From the NCBI GenBank assembly GCA_006384855.1, contig VCJN01003372.1, positions 124,001 through 188,000 of the forward strand: a stretch of DNA of 64,000 nucleotides, written 5' to 3'. The stretch comes from Tetraselmis striata (Eukaryota > Chlorophyta > Chlorodendrophyceae > Chlorodendrales > Chlorodendraceae). The notes below the pieces were generated by a model, which saw only the letters and a list, made by a program, of their open reading frames with translations, was not told where the DNA came from and made no database searches. Both the position numbers and the translations under genes were made by a program. Shown piece by piece: positions 38,044 to 49,900 of this stretch. Position 1 is the first letter of the stretch; each line of letters begins with the position of its first letter.

Positions 38044-38417
38044 GTTTAGTTAGGGCTGCTACTTAGTGCTTTCCGAAATCGATTCGCAATACGACGAAGA
38101 TGTAGGTCGCTATCAGTTTTCTCTCAACAAAACAAAATTATCAACACATTTTCTTTTCTATTCTGCTCTAGTCTATTATATTTCTACTTCCCGAACTTCC
38201 AACCTTATAGACTGTTAGTTCAATAACGGATATGAACCCCCCCCCCCCCATTCATTGAAGTCGCCGGGGACAACACGAGGACGCTCCACCCACGTGCGGG
38301 ATAAGCTTACCATCAGTGTGCAATACATTCAGCGCCCCCATGAACTGCCAATTGCCGCCGGCATCCTGCTTTTGGGGCCAGGGTTGCTGCCAATACATTT
38401 GCTCCGGCGGCGTTCCA

Positions 38418-39302
38418 TGTTGACGGACACTGGTCAATAAAGCAGCTGGTCAAATGGTAAACAATAGTCCACTGAGGTGTAAGTGAGCCCATATGGCTTA
38501 TAAGCAAAGAAGCCTGATGATAATATTCGTAATAGTGCAGTATAGATTAGGGCTAATGCAGAAATGATATGTAGTTACATGAGCTAGCTGCAAAAGGCGA
38601 CCAGGAAATCACCCGAAAAGGCAATATAGGAAACGTCCTACAGCAATTGCGAGGTGGAAACAACACTAGAAGAGGGTGCAGATTGACCACGGGCAGACGC
38701 ATCAAACTTGGCCGTCTGCACTCCGGCAGAGAGAATGCCGCCCAAGGTACCATGCACGCAAGCAAAGACTCGCTGCAACAACCCCCGCCGCGTGCGCGAC
38801 AAACGATGGCTGAACTCATGGCTGAACTCATGGCTGACGATGGCTGGCGACAAAGTTCCCAAGAGCCTGGACGGACTGACCAAGAAGGAAGCATGAAGTC
38901 GGGGCGGAAGGACCGCCAGGGAAGTTGTGCACAGCAAGTAACACCGCAAAGATGTAGACCACCGTTAAAGCGGATTTTCTGCAGAAATGATGGAATGTAT
39001 TAGTACTATCAAGTGAAATGTACTGGATCTGCGAAGCAAGACATGTGTAAGGCATGTGTACACTTGATCAAACATACCCCAGATTTCTGACATGTGTCTC
39101 ACTGAGCCTGAATAGCCTCTTTGATATCGGAACTAGATCAAGAAGCATGAGAAATGGACAGTTAAGCAAATGGAGCATGCCCCAAGCAAGGGCATCTTGC
39201 AGATGAGAATATAATAGGACATTTCTCATCATTTCGTAATCACAATATTATGATCCCAGAGACTGTGTCCCAACAACAAGCTAGAAATTCTCCGAAAATC
39301 CA
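38418..39302 (+). repeat. left LTR of the Copia element with LINE-type insert
   Basis: Aligns with 46532-46997 on both sides of a 411-bp insertion (38569-38979). Shared stretches include GCAGCTGG, AATAGTCCACTGA, GTTAGTCCATC-like sequence and ACATACCCCAGATTTCTGAC. Without the insertion it is about 470 bp. Confidence 0.88.
38557..38991 (-). mobile_element. 411-bp LINE-type insertion inside the Copia LTR
   Basis: TGCAGAAATGAT is duplicated at 38557-38568 and 38980-38991. The insert begins on its left with ATGTAGTTACATGAGCTAGC and the family body (GAAATCACCCGAAAAGGCAA), which in element sense is the 3' end. It is the longest of the five copies. Reading toward its 5' side on the minus strand shows a frame ending SSSVVSTSQLL and a tripled 12-mer (GCTGAACTCATG on plus). 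No reverse transcriptase was recognised, so it may be a truncated LINE tail, a SINE, or a retroposed transcript. Confidence 0.75.
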
Positions 39303-39659
39303 GAGGTTACTACTAGCTACACGACTCGAAGCTTCCTCTGCTTCTAGCTCTGCTGTTCAGTTCTTCGTGCATGTGTGCATGTGGGCGTTGAGATGTGTGC
39401 TCGCTTACTTCATGCCAGCAGCTTCGCCGGTGAGGAAGGGAGCATGTGTGCCTCTCTCGACGTTTTCTGCCCACCTGTCGACCGATGTCAAGCTCTCTCT
39501 CGGCGAAACTCGACCTTTCCCTACCTGAGAAGCGACCCACCTCTCAGCCCTTCTGCCCATTGTTCAGCCCCACTCAGCTCGACTCTCTGATCGTGGCCGT
39601 GACAATCGATCTTCTCAACTTTGGCAAGCTACCCGTGTCAGCCTCTCCGACCGCATACA

Positions 39660-40590
39660 TGGCTTCCTGGCATCAAGCATGCCCCTGCCAAACTCAAGCC
39701 CAAGGAGCCCAAATACCTGGAATTTCAGGAGGTCCGTGATGCTTGCCTCCTCGTGATATGGTGCATCTCTGTGAAGCGCTGCAACCGTTGCGTTCCTGGC
39801 TACTGCGACATCTCCAGCGCCAATTACACCACTGCTGATGACGCGCATCACAATGAAGCTGTCACCTTTGTGGTTTTCCTGCTGCAAGATGATCAGACCA
39901 AGGGCATTGTGCTCAAGGCCGCTGACCGCGCCGGTGAGACAGCAGGCGGGCGCGCGGCGCTCAAAGCCTTGGAGGAACTCCGTGCTTCATACATTCCACA
40001 TGAACGTACCCTTCTCACTCTAATGAAAGCGTCACTGACTCCTGGCCAGAGTCCTCATGAAAATCTCCTTGACTTCATGACCCGGCTGGAGGACCTGCAG
40101 ATTGTCATCAAGGACTGCGATGCGACGGTCTCAGATGACGACATGCTCGTATCCCGGCTAAATAGCACGCGCGCTGAGGAGGCCACTGTCCGAGCAGTGG
40201 TAAAGGGGGACCCCACTGTCATCACCTTCAAGCTGGCCAAGGCAAAGATCAGGACTATCCAAGACCACAACATCGGTATGGAGCAACCTGGCGTTGCCTT
40301 TGCTGCCTTTGCGCCAGCTGGGGCGACATCTTACGTCGCCCTCCATGCCCGCGCGACTGAGTTGGAAGCTGAGAAGGCAACAGCCGAGGCTGCAACCCGC
40401 AAGACGAGGTGGACGAAGCGAACTGAAGGCCATAATAGCAGCTGCAATGCAGTCCCAGCACAACGCTGGAGGCGCCGGCAGTGCACCGCGCTTCAATCCG
40501 CAGAACCGCCGTTGCTACAACTGCAATGCCATCGGACATCTGGCCCGTGACTGTCCCAAGCCCGACAAGAGGAAGACAGCATAAAGAGAC
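39660..40590 (+). mobile_element. Copia gag with zinc knuckle
   Basis: Copia-type gag helices: TKGIVLKAADRAGETAGG, ELRASYIPHERTLLTLM, FMTRLEDLQIVIKDCDA. It ends in the CCHC knuckle CYNCNAIGHLARDCPKP at about 40511-40562. Confidence 0.85.
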
Positions 40591-42119
40591 CGCCCAAGAC
40601 TCGCACCTGGCTCAGAGGAGCTGCCCGCCAAGGAGTTTGGAGTACTGTCGTTCCACATGGCGCTGTTTGCGAGCGCCATACTTGAGCTCCCACCATGCCG
40701 GCTGACGCTTGGTCCGTGATGCCTACCAGCCATCGCACCATGATCACGGCGGTGCCGTCACCCCCGCTTAGCTCCCACAACCCGTTCGGCTCCCTCACCT
40801 TCTCCGATGACAACGCCGGCCCAGATGATAAACCCACCCTCCTGGAGAAGCGCGAAATGCGAGACGCTATCGCCGTCGTGCCGGCTGAAGAACAAGCTAT
40901 GGCCGTCGCCGTTGCGGCAGTCGCTGAGGAGGAAGCTGCGGAGCGCGCCGCCATTGCTGACGTTGCAACCTTCATCGCAGCCGATCCCTTGGCCATGACC
41001 GTGGCCCGCAGTCACTAGCAAGGCGACCATTCTGCCCAACGACGTTGCCATGCGCCGAGCTGTCATCACAAATGATCCCACCCCATGGCCTGCTGACTGG
41101 CTGCACTCAGCCGCCCGCCTCACGGACAAGGCACCAGCCCAAATGCTGACATTTATGCGCGTCATACCCGCTTATTGCTTCAATGCGTCCACCGGCAGTG
41201 ACATGGTTTCTGGCTGCAGCCGCCCGAGCGATTGTGATCTCGCATACAACAGCGCCGACGATAAAAAAGCCATGCTGGTAAATTTTCAGCGTCAATGGGC
41301 ACATGCTGCGTTTGTAGCACGTGGCTTCCCCCCTGCTGATGATCTGACACTGTCACCCGTATCCGATGACACTGGCAGCAAGAACAACAGCATCCTTGCG
41401 CTTATTAGCGACGACAGTATCAGTGACGACAACGACTTCTACGAGCACGCAAGCCCGACCGCTATGTGTGGCGTACCCTCTCAGCCGCATACGACTGGCA
41501 ACGTCTTCTTCTACTTTGACAGTGTGCCGCACTTGACCCCGGAAACCCTAAACAAAAGCGCTGATGATGACCAGACGGTTTCGATCAGTCACCGCTCCAC
41601 CTCGTTGGCTGCCCGCAGCGATGCCAACACCCGTGGATTGAGACTTCACCGCCGGGCCCCTCGTGCCGCTGACCGCATCTTCACGGCGTGGCCCAATGTC
41701 AATCTCTCTGGTACTTCATCAACCGCACCTGCTGTCATGCGCAACACATATCTGGACGATGCCGTGCACTCCTTTCGCCTCGTGCCCAGCGACGACGTGT
41801 CCATTGCGAACCCATCATGCAGCTGCTCACGAGGGGGTCTCATTTAGTTATGCCAGCCTCTTCATAACAAAAAGCGCACGTCGTCATCGCAATTGCCGTT
41901 CAGCTCGTCGCCTTCGGAAGCGCGACCCTTTTGCCATCGGAGGCACCAAGCACCTTACTTGCAGCCACCACCACCGTTGTCATCACCTCGTCCGCTCCCA
42001 ACGCTATCGACGAATTGGAGACTGCATGGCCGCTAAACAACGTTGAAATTACCTGAGAGAGGTAGCGCCGTCGCTGTCCATCCGTCACGCCCGTGCCGAC
42101 CCTGCAGCGCTAGTACCCC

Positions 42120-43050
42120 ACCATCCTCTTTATGTTGTCATCCTCTGCGCAGGAGCCACCTCTGGCGTCGTTGACGGACTCTGCGCAGCCGGACACCGCA
42201 TCGCTACCGTCACACTCATGGAGAATGATGCCGCAATACGTGCTGCCGGCATCCTAGACCTCAACAGAGTTCATGCAAAATGGACTGCGCTCATCTCACC
42301 TGATGCGACCACCAATGCCTACGACCGCCTCCCCACTCATGACGTCGAGCTCCTCACCCCAGACATGTTCGCCGCACTTCCGCTGGTGGACCTTCTCGTG
42401 GCGACAGCTCCGTGTCAGCCGTTCTCATCAGCTTGGAGGAATCAAGGCATGCATGACCATCGAGCCAAGCCTTTCTATGCCGTCTGCCGCCTCATCAAGC
42501 AGCTCAACCGCGCATAGAGCAGTATTATATACGTCATCGAGAAGTAGTCGGAGCCGGGCGCTTCCCCGCCATTCGCGTAGCGCATGTCTTGGCCCACACA
42601 CACGAGCTCGGAACGTCATGATCCCGCCGCGACACCCTCCTCTGGACCACTGCGCACAACCCGGACGCCCTGCATGCCCACTACCATCGTTCGATCTGTC
42701 GCCCAACCAGCGTGGGCGATTTGATTTCCAAGGGTGGCTTCGCACCAGAATGGCAAGCTCCCGCCCACCTGCGTCACGGGAAGTTTGGCAAGTTCGTGTC
42801 TCGCAAGGGCAGCCTCGCGCATCGGATGCATAAATCCACCCCGGGCAGCAATATGCTGCTTCACAATGGCCGCGTGTATGAGGAGGCACCCACGGACATC
42901 AAGTGCGTCTCTTTGGGCTTTGACGACAACGCCGTCGACTTCCTCGAGGTGTCCGCCCATCTAAAGCGTATCATTGGAGCTTGTGTGAACTCGAATGTGG
43001 CGCACTGGCTGATGGCGGCCATCTCCCCCGCGTCCACGGACGAGAGCGCT
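42120..43050 (+). mobile_element. DNA cytosine-5 methyltransferase domain inside the Copia element
   Basis: Motif I-like start (VVILCAGATSGVVDGLCAAG), then an E-N-D at the cofactor position (LMENDAAIRAAGIL), motif IV with the catalytic Cys (LLVATAPCQPFSSAW), a motif VIII-like RRDTLLWTTAHNP and a motif X-like end (RIIGACVNSNVAHWLMAAI). The order and spacing match 5-methylcytosine methyltransferases, with some resemblance to the DNMT3 group at the C-terminal side. It lies directly upstream of the protease motif FDSGATSHI (43090). The copy is broken, so present activity is unlikely. The domain call is by motif only. Confidence 0.75.
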
Positions 43051-43079
43051 CTTCCTACCATTCACCTTCCCTCACAAAT

Positions 43080-44395
43080 GGATCTTCGACTCCGGAGCGA
43101 CCTCACACATAGTGGCACAGTACGAGGACTACTCCAACTATCAGACCATACCGCGTCGATGGATTAGCGGTATGGGCTCCTGCGCTGTGGATACCGGTAT
43201 AGTCCGTATCAACATGCGAGCGGTCAATGGCGACACCCCTTGCAGCACCCTCCACAATGTTCTGCATGTGCCTGATCTCGCTTTGTGTACCAATAACGAG
43301 GTGCTTCGTCTCTTCAGTGCGCGACATGCGCAGGACGCCAATGCAGCCCTACATATGGTCATGACAGCGCGAAGCAGTGCCATGCATACCTCCGATGCTG
43401 TGACCATTCCTATCGAGAATGGCGGGCGCTTATTTATCCTGCGCAGCCACGTGCTCCGCCAGGGACGGCGTCAACGTCATGGTGGTCCGGTGGACACTGC
43501 CATAGCCCTCTCCGCAACACCTTCCACCGCGTTACCATGTGACAAGATGTTGCGGCATGCGCGCCTCGGTCACATCCACGAGAGCGCAATGCACCGTGTT
43601 ACTAATGGGGGACATGGTGCCGACCTACGTCATACCAGCTTTCGTTCTGCAAGTCGTGCGCGATTGTCAAATCCACAGTGGCCCCGATCGATGCCGCGCA
43701 TCTGTCATGAGAAACCAACTGCTCCGTTCTCATCTTTCGTTTGGAGCGACTTATGGGAGCTGCGCACTCGTTCGACGCTGCAAGGCCACACGTAAGACTG
43801 CTGTGGGTACGTCGACTACGCAACGTCCCCAGTGTGTTTGGTCTTCTGCAATTCCCGACAATTTGCTACCGCTACTCTGCGTTCATTCAACACAATGGTG
43901 GTCAGCTACGCCGATTCGATCGCCGCATTGCGTCTATAGACAACGATACAGCCTTCCGCAATCAAGCATACGTGTCCGCCTGCGACGCCCTAACCATCCG
44001 CCGCACATATGCAGCGCCATGCACCTTGGGCACCATCAGCCAATGGGCTCGCTGTATGCTGGACTACGCCAGCCTCCATGCCACCTACTGGGAGTTCGGT
44101 ATGTCAGTCGCAGCCTACATCTACAACCGCACCTTCCGCCGTGGAGTTCGCGGCATCCCGCTTCCCCTTGTGACTGGCGTCATCCCAGACTTGCGTCACC
44201 TGCGCGTGTTTGGCTGTGATACCTATGCGCACGTTCCCCGCAGTACCCGGCGCAAGGCTGACCCTTCCGCCCGTCAAGGTGTCCTCATTGGATACTCCAC
44301 CGACTCACCGGCATGGCTTGTGTACTTTTCCGCCACGCGGTCTGTCGTGGCCAGCCGATGCGTCGCCTTCGATGAGACTGATGGCTCTTAATAAG
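43080..44395 (+). mobile_element. Copia protease and integrase region
   Basis: Protease KWIFDSGATSHIVAQYEDY; zinc-binding pre-integrase HARLGHIHESAMH; integrase parts YSAFIQHNGGQLRRFD, YAAPCTLGTISQW and AAYIYNRTF; then the Copia-typical VFGCDTYAHVP ... GVLIGYSTDSPAWLVYF. Confidence 0.9.
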
Positions 44396-45019
44396 CGCCA
44401 TGCACTGTGGAGCACTACCCTGATTCATGACCGTCTGCAGCCTCTCAGGAGGGCATGGCTACAAAGTCAGGAGGGGCCACAGCCGCCACGACAGGAGGGG
44501 CTGCGCCCCGAGCAGTATTCCATACCTGCTCGGCATCAACTAGCTCCGTGGAACTCCCACCCGCATGGAAGCCCACTCGCGTATGTAACATGACAATACC
44601 ATCCGATGTCAGCGAAACCGACAGCGACAACGACAGCGGCAGCAAGCCGAACGAGCACCACCGTGTACGCACTCCGCCCCCGCCTCAGCGACCAGCAGTG
44701 TCACCATCAGAAGGGCCAACACCTCAGCCACCTACCGTAGCTATTCCTCCCAGAACACGCCCGCAACCCCCTTCTCAGACAACCACACCTCCCCGAAGCC
44801 ACTGCAAACCTCGACCGCACGCAGCGTAGCAGACAGTCCCCCGGCGTATACACAATACCAGCACTGATGGCAGCACCGTACCACAAGGAGCCACCTACTA
44901 CGCAGATGTGTTTCAAGACTCCATCCACAACATCGACCCGTGTAAATGGGTACTACTGGCGGGCGAAGCACTTGGTGACCCGCTGACCTACACGGAGGCC
45001 ATGAACTCACCTCTGACTG

Positions 45020-46510
45020 GTGGCTGGAGGCAAGGCACCAGGAGTACAACTCGCCGGACTCAAAGCGCACGTGGGAGCTGATGGTCATGCCCGGCGGACG
45101 CATTGCTGTCAAGTCCAAGTGGGCATGCACAACTCGGATGGCACAACTGCAAGACACAAGGCTCGCGTTGTAGCAAAGGGATTCTCGCAGGTCGAGGGCA
45201 TCGACTATACCGACACCTTCGCACCCACCGTGAAGTTCACAACCCTGCGAGTCATCTTCTCCATTGTTGCGCACCATCGATTCCAGCAGACGAAGTGGAT
45301 TGCGCGTTCTTGTACGCGGATCTGAGCGAGGAGATATACATTGATCAACCCCGCGACTTTGAGTATGGACCCAATGGCGAGAAGCTGATGTGCAGACTGA
45401 GTATGGCCGTGTACGGTATAAAGCAAGCACCCCACAACTGGCACAAGCTACGCAATTACTATATGACATCACAACACTTTCGACAACTGCGAGCTGACCC
45501 TGGCGCCTACGTCTCCCGGAGCAGCGACGGCGTCATTCTGGGCATTATCGCAATCTACGTGGACGACATCATCATTGTCAGCAACTCGCGCCCCTGGATT
45601 GCCCACTTCAAGCAGGCGCTCGGACAGCGCTTTGACATCAAAGATCTAGGCTCCTGCTCATAGCTGTTGGGAAGGTGGAGCATGACCAGACAGCCGGCGT
45701 GATCAAGATGCATCAGCCCAAGTACATCCATGACATGCTGGAGCGCTTTGGTATGAGCGACTGCACCCCTGCACATGTCCCAAGTACTGGCAACGATCCG
45801 AGGGCGTCAACCGCACTGGATGACAGCGCCAGCACCACATACCGGAGCCTCTTTGGAGCAGTGTCGTACGCAGCAGTTGCCACATGTCCTGACATCGCGG
45901 AGGCCGTCTCTCGCATATGCCGATTCATGACTGCAGCAACGCAGGCACACATGGAGGATGCACGACATTGCCTCCGATACCTGAAAGGAACTCATGACCG
46001 GGGGACTAATTTTCGGATGATAATGCGAGTTTATTCTTCATGGTCACAGTGATACCAACTTCCCAACAACGTATCCAAGTCAGTGCAAGTCGACCAGCGG
46101 TTATGTATTCTTTCTTGCAGGAGCAGCCGTCAGCTACCTATCCAAGCTTCAGCCATTGGTAGCACTCGGGACAGCAGAGGCAGAATATATAGCACTTTGC
46201 GTCACATCGCAGGACCGAGGCAAAGTTCTTGAGGCAGAAACTATCAGAACTGGGATTGACGCATGACGGCGCAACAGCAATCGGAGAGGACAACCAGGCA
46301 TGTATTACAGTCGCCACCAACGACGTGACGTCAGCCCGGACCAAGCACCCGGACATCCAACTTCACTTTGTGCGAGACGCACAAAGCTCTAAAAAAATGG
46401 TGTGGTATGTGCCCGCTGCAGACATGCTGGCTGACACCTTCACGAAACCGCTTGCGCCCTGCCAGCAGTTTGAGGCCTTGACCTCGTGCATCATGAACTA
46501 CGATTGAGCA
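45020..46510 (+). mobile_element. Copia reverse transcriptase and RNase H region
   Basis: [48 protein letters not shown]. RNase H: YRSLFGAVSYAAVATCPDI, then EDNQACITVATN and ADMLADTFTKPLAP before the polypurine tract. Confidence 0.92.
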
Positions 46511-46531
46511 CCTGCAACCACTGAGGAGGGG

Positions 46532-46997
46532 TGTTGACTGGTCAAAGCAGCTGGCCAACTTGTCAATGTAATAGTCCACTGAAGTGTAAGTGAGTCCATC
46601 TGGCTTATAGGCAACTAAGCTTGGTGATAATGTTCGTAATAGTGCAGTATAAATTATGTCTACTGCAGAAATGATGGAATGTACTAGTGAGATGTACTGG
46701 ATCTGCAGAGCAAGACAGGTGTGAGGCATGTGAAGACATGCTTCATATAACACTTGATCAAACATACCCCAGATTTCTGACACATGTCAGACTGAACGAA
46801 CCCGAATGGCCTTTTAGATATTGGAACCAGATCAAGAAGCATGAGAAATGGACAGATGAGCAGATGGAGCATGCCCCTAGCAAGGGCAACCTGCAGATGA
46901 GAATATAATGGGACATTCCTCATCATTTGTGATCACAATATTCTGATCCCACAGATTCTGTCCCAACAGCAAGCTAGAAATTCTCAGAAAATCTAGA
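46532..46997 (+). repeat. right LTR of the Copia element
   Basis: About 466 bp starting TGTTGACTGGTCAAAGC. Alignable over its length with the left LTR after leaving out the latter's insertion. Confidence 0.88.
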
Positions 46998-49900
46998 TTC
47001 CCGATGAATTCCTTGGGATGGCAACATGGCGTTGCTGTGTCGGCCAGGCCGCCGCACCCCGATGCGAGGTGAGCGAGCAGGGCGGGCGCTGGGGGCGCAC
47101 CGCCGAGGCGCAGATCCTTCACCGTGATGTTGCACACCCAGCCGCCATCTGGGGTTTCCCTGGGCCGCAAGGCCGCTGCTATTGCCTGCCATCCCACGCC
47201 TCCGATGCCATTGTCTGGAGACCACATGAGCGACCATGATCCCGGTCTTATTCCTTTTCTTTTGACAGATCAAAGAAATGTCCAAAAACAAGTCCGAAAA
47301 ATGTCCGGAAAATGAGTCCGAACAGTCCGAAAAGAACAAAATGTCGGTGCACAGCCCAGAATTAGTCGATGATGAAATGCGCGTGTCGGCAGCTCGATGC
47401 AGTGCTAGTACTGAGAGCGTAGTGACAGGAGCCACAGGATCCTCAGCGTGGAGTGTCGCTAGACTGGGGATCTTCGTGGATCATGTTGAATACAGGCAGG
47501 AAGTGTTCCAGGACTTACGGGAAAGGTGAAGAGCAGTGGTGCTGTGCCCATGGTTGAGCGCCCAAGCGCCGTCCGGGTTTTTCCGCGGCTCCACGGCAGC
47601 GGCGATGGCCTGAGCACCTGCGTCCCCAATGTAGTTCTCTGCAAAGGGATAGACAGGGGATGGGGGTTACACTGGTTGCTAAAGCTAGCGCAGCACCGAG
47701 AGAACTAACTAGAACGATCGCAGCACCACAAAATAAAGGGTATGTACAGCTGAATGCTCGCTTCGCAGTGTGCAGCTCCCGGTGTACATGGAGAAACACA
47801 CAACTCACCTACGAGCAACAACTCCAACGGCGACGTGTTGAAGCGCCAGTAGCCATTGGCATCCTGGCGCGGGGAAAGGAGCGCTTCCGCCAGTGCCGTG
47901 GCTCCTTCCGCTTTGATGTAGTTGTCTGGAGCATCGTGGACAACCCTGGTTCGTCAACCCTGTGACGTAGCCCAGAAAGCTACCCACACAGTGCGCAAAG
48001 GGTGCCGGTAGAAGGCGCACACAGAAGCGCTCTCCGAGACGCCCCGATGCAAGCTAACAAATCACAGGCCAAAACCACGCGCTTTGGATTTGCTACACAG
48101 AACTTTTCCAATCCACGACGAGAGGGAAACTATATTTATCTTGAGGTATATTGTACCATTAAATACGGTCTGCGGGGACGGAAAAATGAATTATTTTGAA
48201 CTCGCATCGTAATATTCGTGCTATATTCTGATTTATTCTCCGTTTTTAAATAGTTTTCCCCTCTTCGCGTGGGGGGGGGGGGGGGGGGGGCAAAACGTAT
48301 GTGCTTATCACAATACACCACGAACATTGCACGGAATCGCCGCGACTTTATGGTGCGATTCACTGTGACGCGCAAACATGACCAAATGATACAGGTGATA
48401 CGGTGTAGAGGGATAAGATGGCGCAAGTGCGCCCTCTCTTGCTGATAAGCATGGCCTAACGGAGCCCTCAATGGCTGTGGAACCTCACCCTGCAGCCATA
48501 GCTCCTCCAGCGCCATGTTGAAGGCCCAGCTCCCGTCGCAGTTCCGCTGGGGGGCCAGCGCTGCCGCAATCACCTTGGCTCCCTCATCCCGGATGCTGTT
48601 GCCTGCAACCAGCCCTGGATGTCATGGCGTAGTGCTCTGTTGTCGCATTCATGCGGGTGGAGAGAGAGAGAGAGACTCGATTACGCACGAGATGCTTGTC
48701 GCGAAAGGGCAATGCGGATGGTTATGAAAAAATGAAAAAACCAAAAGTACTCCAAATACCATGCACCTGCCGACTTAAATGGGGGATTCTGTTACAAATT
48801 CATCATTATCTTTCCTGCTTTGAAAATGATGTACCATCTTATACACAAGTAATAAACCCAGAGCGTGCTTTTTTTTTAATACAGAGCAATTGCATTTCAA
48901 AGATTGTTTATTGGGAATCCAAAAATCTTGTGTGTCTTATTTTTAAACGCAAATTCTAATTTCAACTCACAACAATAGCAGCAGAAAACCATAGTCTTTC
49001 TTTTTATGCATAATAGAAACCACTTAACAGAGGATGGACTATACGAAACGTAATATGAATTCTACGGCGCCACAATTCCAACTAGGGAGGCTACCACATT
49101 GTGGCTCATGCGGTGCTGGATGTGCGGCAACGCAACAACTGCGCGCATGTACATCACAAGCACATTTTGAGTAATAAGTGCCAGTGACGGATAAGCCGTC
49201 ACGGCGTCCTTATTGCATTTCCACATACTGAAGATAAAGCGGAAATGTCGCTAGATCGAACTTTTCAGCGCGCAGGGGCTTACCACACTACAGGGCACCG
49301 GAATGCTATCACTGGATGCATTGAAGCCCGATTTGAGGCCTTGAGGGCTCATATAGATGCGTCGGAACCCGTAGTTTGTTCCGCAGAGAAACATCATCCA
49401 GAAACAAGCACTCGTACAAACCCGGCCGCATGGGAATGTTCTAAAGGCATCGGAGTAAGGCGCACAAGTAAAGTTCATCAGAATGATCAGAGTTGGGAGT
49501 TTGGGCTCACCCTCCAGGTCCAGACACCTGAGCACCTTGCTGTGCTCCCAGTTGTCAAAGCAGTTCCGCCGTGGCCGCAGTGCAATGGCGGCGGCCTTGG
49601 CACCCTCGAACTGGACCTGATTGCCTGCAAAAGAGCGGCACAGCAGCGTGCATCAGGTCAGGGATGAAAATGCAAGTCCATAGTTGGGCCACGCAAAGTC
49701 CGAGCGCTGCTGAAGTATTATTTGACCTCATGTTGTACCATCGTTGGCGATGATCTCAGCTCTGACTAACGAGGTTTTGTTTTCTCGGCCGTGACACGCT
49801 TCACCCTTGCAGATGTACTGCTGCCAGGTCCAGCAGGTGCAAAGAAACAACCCGGGGACTGCAGGATGAGAGACACACCTCGGAATGAGAGCTCCGGGCA

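Follow-up and report, generated by a model that had tools for sequence, protein, structure and literature searches.

Hosts silence parasitic DNA with cytosine DNA methyltransferases (DNMTs), and to our knowledge retrotransposons with a silencing-type enzyme of their own come from very few lineages. De Mendoza et al. (PMC5890265) report DNMTs in DIRS and LINE elements of Symbiodinium and in Gypsy elements of Klebsormidium, and describe Symbiodinium Copia elements without a DNMT. According to the same paper, DNMTs of SymbioDIRS-Dnmt3 establish CG methylation de novo when isolated and placed in yeast; SymbioLINE-Dnmt gave no methylation of yeast DNA, a result called inconclusive by its authors. 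In PMC12344493, SymbioLINE-Dnmt is termed an orphan DNMT, and a single phrase mentions some DNMT3 embedded in LTR Copia and DIRS elements of streptophytes and dinoflagellates; this phrase cites the 2018 paper (PMC5890265), whose text says Gypsy. Of two further papers, one lists Ty3/Gypsy and DIRS (PMC6338049) and the other reports, in the green alga Cymbomonas, very high-copy scaffolds with homology to, among others, cytosine DNA methyltransferase (PMC5741210). Dam-type adenine methyltransferases of DIRS elements (PMC5890265, PMC6338049) are also retroelement-borne DNA methyltransferases, but they are structurally unrelated and modify another base. DNMT-bearing retrotransposons are thus already known; what appears to be new here is their carriage by Copia elements in a chlorophyte, Tetraselmis striata, and the position of the domain between gag and protease. 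The literature we searched, which covered few subscription papers and no supplements, contained no description of a DNMT-bearing Copia element in Tetraselmis or another chlorophyte.

How do the Tetraselmis elements compare with these systems? SymbioDIRS-Dnmt3 (PMC5890265) resembles them in having a C5-methyltransferase in the Pol frame, many copies and purifying selection, but it is a DIRS element with a tyrosine recombinase and its DNMT falls within eukaryotic Dnmt3. The Tetraselmis Copia elements have a DDE integrase, direct LTRs and a PCQ motif IV that is not clearly DNMT3, and no tyrosine recombinase is found among their Pfam matches. KnitGypsy-Dnmt3 of Klebsormidium nitens (PMC5890265) is likewise an LTR element of a green-lineage alga with the DNMT in Pol; however, it is a Gypsy element of a streptophyte, whereas ours are Copia elements of a chlorophyte with the module between gag and protease. 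SymbioLINE-Dnmt, compared by description only, is like our LINE-like family F an orphan DNMT in a non-LTR element (PMC5890265, PMC12344493), but its DNMT lies in an ORF upstream of the reverse transcriptase (RT), while that of family F follows the RT in the same ORF as PCIF1_WW and RNase_H. The 'LTR Copia' DNMT3 elements of PMC12344493 are also Copia-borne, but there the hosts are streptophytes and dinoflagellates, and the section that mentions them names no Tetraselmis.

The window, that is, the whole stretch of 64,000 nucleotides analysed, contains a degenerate Ty1/Copia LTR retrotransposon on the forward strand at 38418-46997, which belongs to a family that we label A. The first-pass annotation had described an 8.6-kb Copia element; we specify its extent as these 8,580 bp, which include a 411-bp insert in the 5' LTR. 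The two LTRs are direct repeats (5', 38418-39304, 887 bp of which 411 bp are the later insert; 3', 46532-46997, 466 bp) and are flanked by a 5-bp target-site duplication, TTCCA at 38413-38417 and TTCCC at 46998-47002, with one mismatch. The combination of an LTR pair and a short target duplication, typical of Ty1/Copia, is also present in the relatives at C663 (GGATG) and C1051 (GCCGC), whose 5-bp duplications were read by eye from the flanks. With the insert omitted and 42 gap columns uncounted, the LTRs of the window element are identical at 388 of 444 columns (87.4%), which indicates an old copy; the element as a whole is 88.2% identical to its relative at C663 over 7,905 aligned nucleotide columns. 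The insert itself (38569-38979) has 12-bp direct repeats, TGCAGAAATGAT, at both flanks. Its bases 38600-38960 match 40 places among the best-scored of 2,136 first-look candidates, 39 of them (other than the window's own, with 40 candidates scored) at 84-88% identity, and it is a high-copy short element, probably of a retroposon-like kind.

The remaining parts of the element follow each other on the same strand. The gag zinc knuckle (CCHC, CYNCNAIGHLARDC) lies at 40513-40554, the Copia protease active site FDSGATSH at 43085-43108 (with Pol_BBD, PF22936, in frame 43013-43792) and an integrase fragment, DNDTAF, at 43939-43956. The SH3_retrovirus domain of the integrase C-terminus covers 44176-44382 (Pfam E 3.5e-22, residues 156-224 of frame 43711-44388), the RVT_2 reverse transcriptase 45292-45657 (Pfam E 4.2e-25, residues 71-192 of frame 45082-45660), including YVDDI at 45556-45570, and the end of RNase H (AEAEYIAL ... 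ADTFTKPL) 46174-46453, split over two frames.

Between gag and protease, the first-pass annotation had proposed a DNMT-like domain and had called for a profile search of 42.1-43.1 kb. This search confirms the proposal: frame 42047-42514 matches Pfam DNA_methylase (PF00145; profile positions 44-100 of 324) with an E-value of 1.5e-9 and 38.2 bits, against a cut-off of 22, and frame 42622-43164, which holds the second half of the domain, matched no Pfam family. A tblastn comparison with the intact 323-aa domain of a family-A relative traces the C5-cytosine methyltransferase domain over 42065-43026 (forward strand) in two frames: 42065-42598 is 76% identical to residues 1-178, and 42475-43026, in the other frame, 78% identical to residues 140-323. 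A motif I-like stretch (VILCAGATSGVVDGL, 42137-42181), motif IV with the catalytic Cys (TAPCQPFSSA, 42404-42433), a motif VIII-like SRRDTLLWT in the other frame (42622-42648) and a motif X-like stretch (IIGACVNSNVAHWLMAA, IIGACVNSNVA..., 42970-43020) follow one another in the interval from the CCHC knuckle (40513) to FDSGATSH (43085). The order claimed earlier for PCQPFS, a motif I-like start and a motif X-like end was thus correct (42137-43020). The domain is broken, however, by in-frame stops at 42515, 42545 and 42578 and by a frame change. Comparison with the intact copy at C663 shows that the motif VI site (42530-42547), YVIENV there, has become YVIEK-stop. The window copy is dead and its DNMT a pseudogene with motif VI destroyed.

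Such a broken copy could suggest that the domain resembles a methyltransferase by chance, or that it is a passenger or private insertion to which the element owes nothing. We searched the 224-Mb assembly with the family-A domain and obtained at least 128 match rows (124 of 489 candidates scored), which were merged by hand. At least 28 places, the window copy counted, carry the DNMT at 76-100% identity, so the insertion is not private to this copy. Of the two findings that the first-pass annotation named as refuting it, lack of a significant methyltransferase match and absence of the domain from all other members, neither was obtained, and its interpretation is supported. At least 308 of the 323 residues are free of stops in 17 of the 28 places, and in five of the 28 the domain lies within open frames of 2,295-2,299 aa. 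The intact elements at C663 and C1051 have LTR pairs 99.4 and 99.8% identical, and the LTR pairs of examined copies across the DNMT-bearing Copia families are 98.5-100% identical. In the intact frame at C663, Pfam domains come in the order zf-CCHC (residues 281-297), DNA_methylase (872-957), Pol_BBD (1137-1205), gag_pre-integrs, rve, SH3 and RVT_2, and the linker, DNMT and protease-integrase can be aligned through nine family-A copies. At C1051:25027-38933 (L011-L012), two family-A elements of different subfamilies adjoin each other, with LTR-sized repeats at three places that are 96-99.8% identical.

The same arrangement was found in four other Copia families. In families A to E the DNMT is part of a single ORF of 2,037-2,483 aa, in which it follows the CCHC knuckle and precedes protease and RVT_2: B at C2193 (2,483 aa, LTR pair 99.8%), C at C1086 (2,147 aa, 5' LTR truncated where the contig ends), D at C2111 (2,037 aa, LTR pair 99.8%) and E at C193 (2,164 aa, LTR pair 98.5%). 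At an E-value of 0.01, Pfam recognises CCHC in three of the families (A, B and C) and Pol_BBD in all but D; pattern matching alone identified the knuckle in D and E and the protease in D. The rve domain precedes RVT_2 in A, B, C and D, with A and D under Pfam's rve cut-off; in E, rve falls short of E 0.01, and gag_pre-integrs and SH3 precede RVT_2. An integrase placed before an RT of RVT_2 type identifies these elements as Copia and not Gypsy. PF00145 scores above 22 bits in the window, A, B, D, E and F; the domain of family C, with 18.7 bits, is below the cut-off, has PCAPFS as motif IV and is 47% identical to that of A.

Counted by hand, family D has 21 full-length copies at 95% identity or more, two of the 21 with a stop, and family E has 20 at 85% or more, four of the 20 with a stop. 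More than 200 domain match rows were obtained in the genome, at least 128 mainly from A, B, C and E and 127 nearly all from D and its derivatives. One such derivative, L185 (C1912:280201-285200), has lost an internal part but retains gag plus the N-terminal DNMT half, still in frame; PPCQ is changed to APLQ and ENV to QNC, protease and integrase are absent, and the element looks non-autonomous. Several tens of family-D places match, like L185, only about residues 5-212 of the domain.

The presence of many copies inside Copia ORFs rules out a chance match, a private insertion or prokaryotic contamination. Against a passenger without a role stand the occurrence of the domain in five Copia families whose copies reach into the tens, their intact ORFs, purifying selection on the domain and its single clade (both below), and we consider this explanation practically negligible. 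A DNMT is not needed for Copia success, though, since a DNMT-less Copia family, G (C1926, 1,561 aa), in which gag runs to the protease with no DNMT, is also common: open frames of 1,561 aa are frequent among the best 150 of 897 RVT_2 candidates.

Selection was assessed from dN/dS at nine of 13 family-A loci, after C423, C782, C2901 and C870 were dropped for stops within the stretch. Between two subfamilies, dN/dS is 0.17-0.23 for the DNMT and 0.62-0.99 for the adjoining linker in 14 pairs, all of them non-independent contrasts of this one pair of subfamilies. The protease-integrase gives 0.25-0.34 in seven pairs with C2889 and 0.65-0.71 in pairs with C1051b, a locus that carries a stop. Within one subfamily, the pair C2889-C1051b gives 0.26 for the DNMT, 0.82 for the linker and 0.75 for the protease-integrase. 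The DNMT domain is under purifying selection (dN/dS 0.17-0.26), held like an intact protease-integrase and unlike the linker.

The conserved residues are those of a C5-methyltransferase. Among 33 invariant columns across seven aligned domains are the motif IV Cys, ENV, a motif VIII Arg that precedes W-x-N, and the motif X residues G-x3-D-x-N; Cys (IV), ENV (VI), Arg (VIII) and motif X occur in this order in all seven and are partly lost in the window copy. AlphaFold gave a confident model of the family-A domain (pLDDT 91.8, pTM 0.90). Taken together, the sequence data make this almost certainly a real, selected C5-methyltransferase module of Copia elements. Could the domain now be structural or nucleic acid-binding, with catalysis no longer the selected trait? 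The half domain kept in frame in L185 with APLQ and QNC would fit such a role, as would the deviation of families C and E from PPCQ in motif IV. The catalytic Cys and ENV are, however, invariant in A-F and in the metagenomic protein P0008, and dN/dS is low, so that we find this reading quite improbable.

Assignment to a known methyltransferase group is less straightforward. Motif IV reads PxC in all 14 domains checked (14 of the 15 retroelement rows of our tree, P0006 left out), always as PxCQ, PxCA or PxCE and never as PCN. PCN in motif IV is a trait of DNMT3 and is also present in the DNMT3A alignment made here. CFTxxYxxY, the signature of DNMT2, an enzyme that methylates tRNA, occurs in 0 of the 14 retroelement domains, which speaks against membership in DNMT2. 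The best PDB profile matches are HaeIII (40.6 bits), DNMT2 chain 6fdf (40.5) and DNMT3A (39.0, in three separate stretches). In hhalign, a 12-row profile of the retroelement domains reaches 99.3% probability against seven prokaryotic methyltransferases and 96.9% against the DNMT3A pieces. Families A-F all match NCBIfam dcm (TIGR00675) at 22-47 bits (E 9.7e-5 to 2e-12), under the curated cut-off of 100.65, which marks the lineage as divergent.

These profile matches bear on whether the enzyme may methylate RNA instead, with a role in stability, packaging or priming; its target would be the genomic RNA of the element or the tRNA that primes it. The DNMT2 chain is among the best matches and the module adjoins gag, and De Mendoza et al. 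(PMC5890265) raise RNA as a substrate of SymbioLINE-Dnmt. Yet the DNMT2 signature is missing from all 14 domains, HaeIII, a DNA enzyme, scores equally and DNMT3A also matches, in its three stretches; we therefore hold an RNA substrate to be unlikely.

In a tree of 36 DNMT rows, from which P0001-P0005, P0007, P0011, P0015, P0017 and P0018 were left out (one of them a P0012-like protein, the others fragments or near-copies from Tetraselmis), all 15 retroelement DNMTs form one clade with support 100/100 on a long stem. DNMT3A, entered as the joined pieces of a single chain, falls on the retroelement side together with three rows of viral type, in a weakly supported group (82/60) with long branches. 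Family F lies within the Copia DNMT clade and groups there with P0012, P0013, P0014 and P0016 (100/99). With an AU p-value of 0.298 (10 rows against 26), a clade of Copia-borne DNMTs that excludes the LINE-borne enzymes is neither supported nor rejected. Family F is the LINE-like element L017 (C2687:13001-23000), present at four loci (C2687, C653, C2172 and C596), with RVT_1, PCIF1_WW, DNA_methylase and RNase_H in one ORF of 3,505 aa; the Pfam scan covered 3,333 of these residues, and no NPPF-type motif was found in the scanned part.

Relatives were also found in protein collections, in a search that scored the 8,000 candidates sharing most words with the query at 0.55-1.75 times its length and gave 272 matches at E 0.001, of which the best 120 were considered. 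P0001-P0003 (EukProt) are 99% identical over the DNMT region and bear the JGI label Tetstr1, in our reading Tetraselmis striata (Chlorophyta, Chlorodendrophyceae). Two metagenomic Copia polyproteins from ENA, P0129 (20-kb contig) and P0008 (7-kb contig), have the DNMT between CCHC and protease, P0010 has a DNMT followed by Pol_BBD, and the DNMT of P0012-P0016 resembles the LINE type. In P0009 the DNMT comes after an apparent Copia RNase H end, and Pfam matches the DNMT alone; in all other copies and proteins read it lies between gag and protease. After these retroelement proteins, the E-value falls from 6.6e-36 to 1.1e-9. Scans for a viral or prokaryotic donor with profile A2 (49 viral-contig loci, and at least 80 prokaryote loci among 217 confirmed) gave, among these loci, partial matches at 25-54% identity, none spanning the whole domain, and no close relative.

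Is this distribution compatible with a single capture? A comparison of the protease-integrase of A, B and C gives 38-40% identity with G and 27-32% with D and E, and an RT tree of eight rows joins G to A, B, C and a pair of Tetraselmis proteins, apart from D and E (97/95). G is a closer relative of A, B and C than either D or E is, and the presence of the DNMT does not simply track pol kinship: among the six families compared, either G would have lost the domain or it would have been gained more than once. This patchy pattern, the LINE-like family F and the C-terminal DNMT of P0009 make a module moving among retroelements plausible. We tentatively suggest a dedicated lineage of cytosine methyltransferases, long selected and proper to retroelements as opposed to any host or virus, that circulates as a module among distant retrotransposons, to which SymbioLINE-Dnmt may belong; its settings would be the Copia gag-protease interval, the Copia region after RNase H and a LINE-like element with a PCIF1-type domain. 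The shared clade suggests that the DNMT may recur in retroelements as an exchangeable component, as opposed to a one-off capture.

As to function, the best explanation, which we consider probable, is a Copia family that stably encodes a C5-methyltransferase inside its single Gag-Pol frame and acts on the DNA of the new element or of its integration site. The DNMT would be translated as part of Gag-Pol, freed by the protease and taken into the particle alongside the RT, where it would methylate cytosines of newly made element DNA, or else DNA at the integration site. New copies would then arrive pre-marked, and the host would read the mark as its own or as silent. By analogy with SymbioDIRS-Dnmt3, translation within Gag-Pol, release by the protease and proximity to the RT would bring the enzyme onto new cDNA; that the element's own cDNA is the main substrate is a real possibility, if somewhat short of a likely one. 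Alternatively, the enzyme may act in trans on host chromatin, shifting host methylation or competing with host silencing. The more than 200 match rows in the genome would favour this, and A, B and C have, upstream of the domain, patches with 11-14 R or K among 25 residues that could help the protein into the nucleus. The domain is, however, fused within Gag-Pol, and D, E, P0008 and P0129 have no such patch (3-6 of 25 residues); an action on host chromatin seems rather unlikely to us, though less remote than a structural role.

A footprint of methylation by the element on itself was not seen as CpG depletion in single copies. The observed/expected CpG ratio, from one or two copies of each family, is 0.81-0.82 in A (two copies), 0.91 in the window copy, 0.80 in B, 0.86 in C, 0.90 in D, 0.96 in E, 0.81 in F and 0.80 in the DNMT-less G, so A is no lower than G. 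Between the window copy and C663, C-to-T changes at CpG are 1.4-2.8 times those at CHG or CHH in both directions, a modest excess.

One chlorophyte genome thus holds five Copia families and a LINE-like element with related DNMTs, together with a DNMT-less Copia family as a natural control. Parasitic DNA here would bring along the very enzyme class that hosts use against it, its activity being predicted from sequence. Tetraselmis is kept in culture, and with young, near-identical copies in a cultured alga, what a retroelement gains from cytosine methylation is directly testable.

Other DNMT sequences of the genome differ from this module. One is a stand-alone ORF of roughly 325 aa (PCVGLSNANFRRR), found at L025-L030, L032-L036 and L041, whole or in part in 12 loci by match pattern, six of the 12 having been read; three of these loci share one contig with Copia frames of 1,561 aa. 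L037, L038 and L039 contain DNMT exons with FCCQSFS(K/R)AG replacing PPCQ and are apparently intron-bearing host genes. Finally, a 630-aa DNMT ORF at L040 (C2009) has a bacterial or phage look, and its contig is possibly a contaminant.
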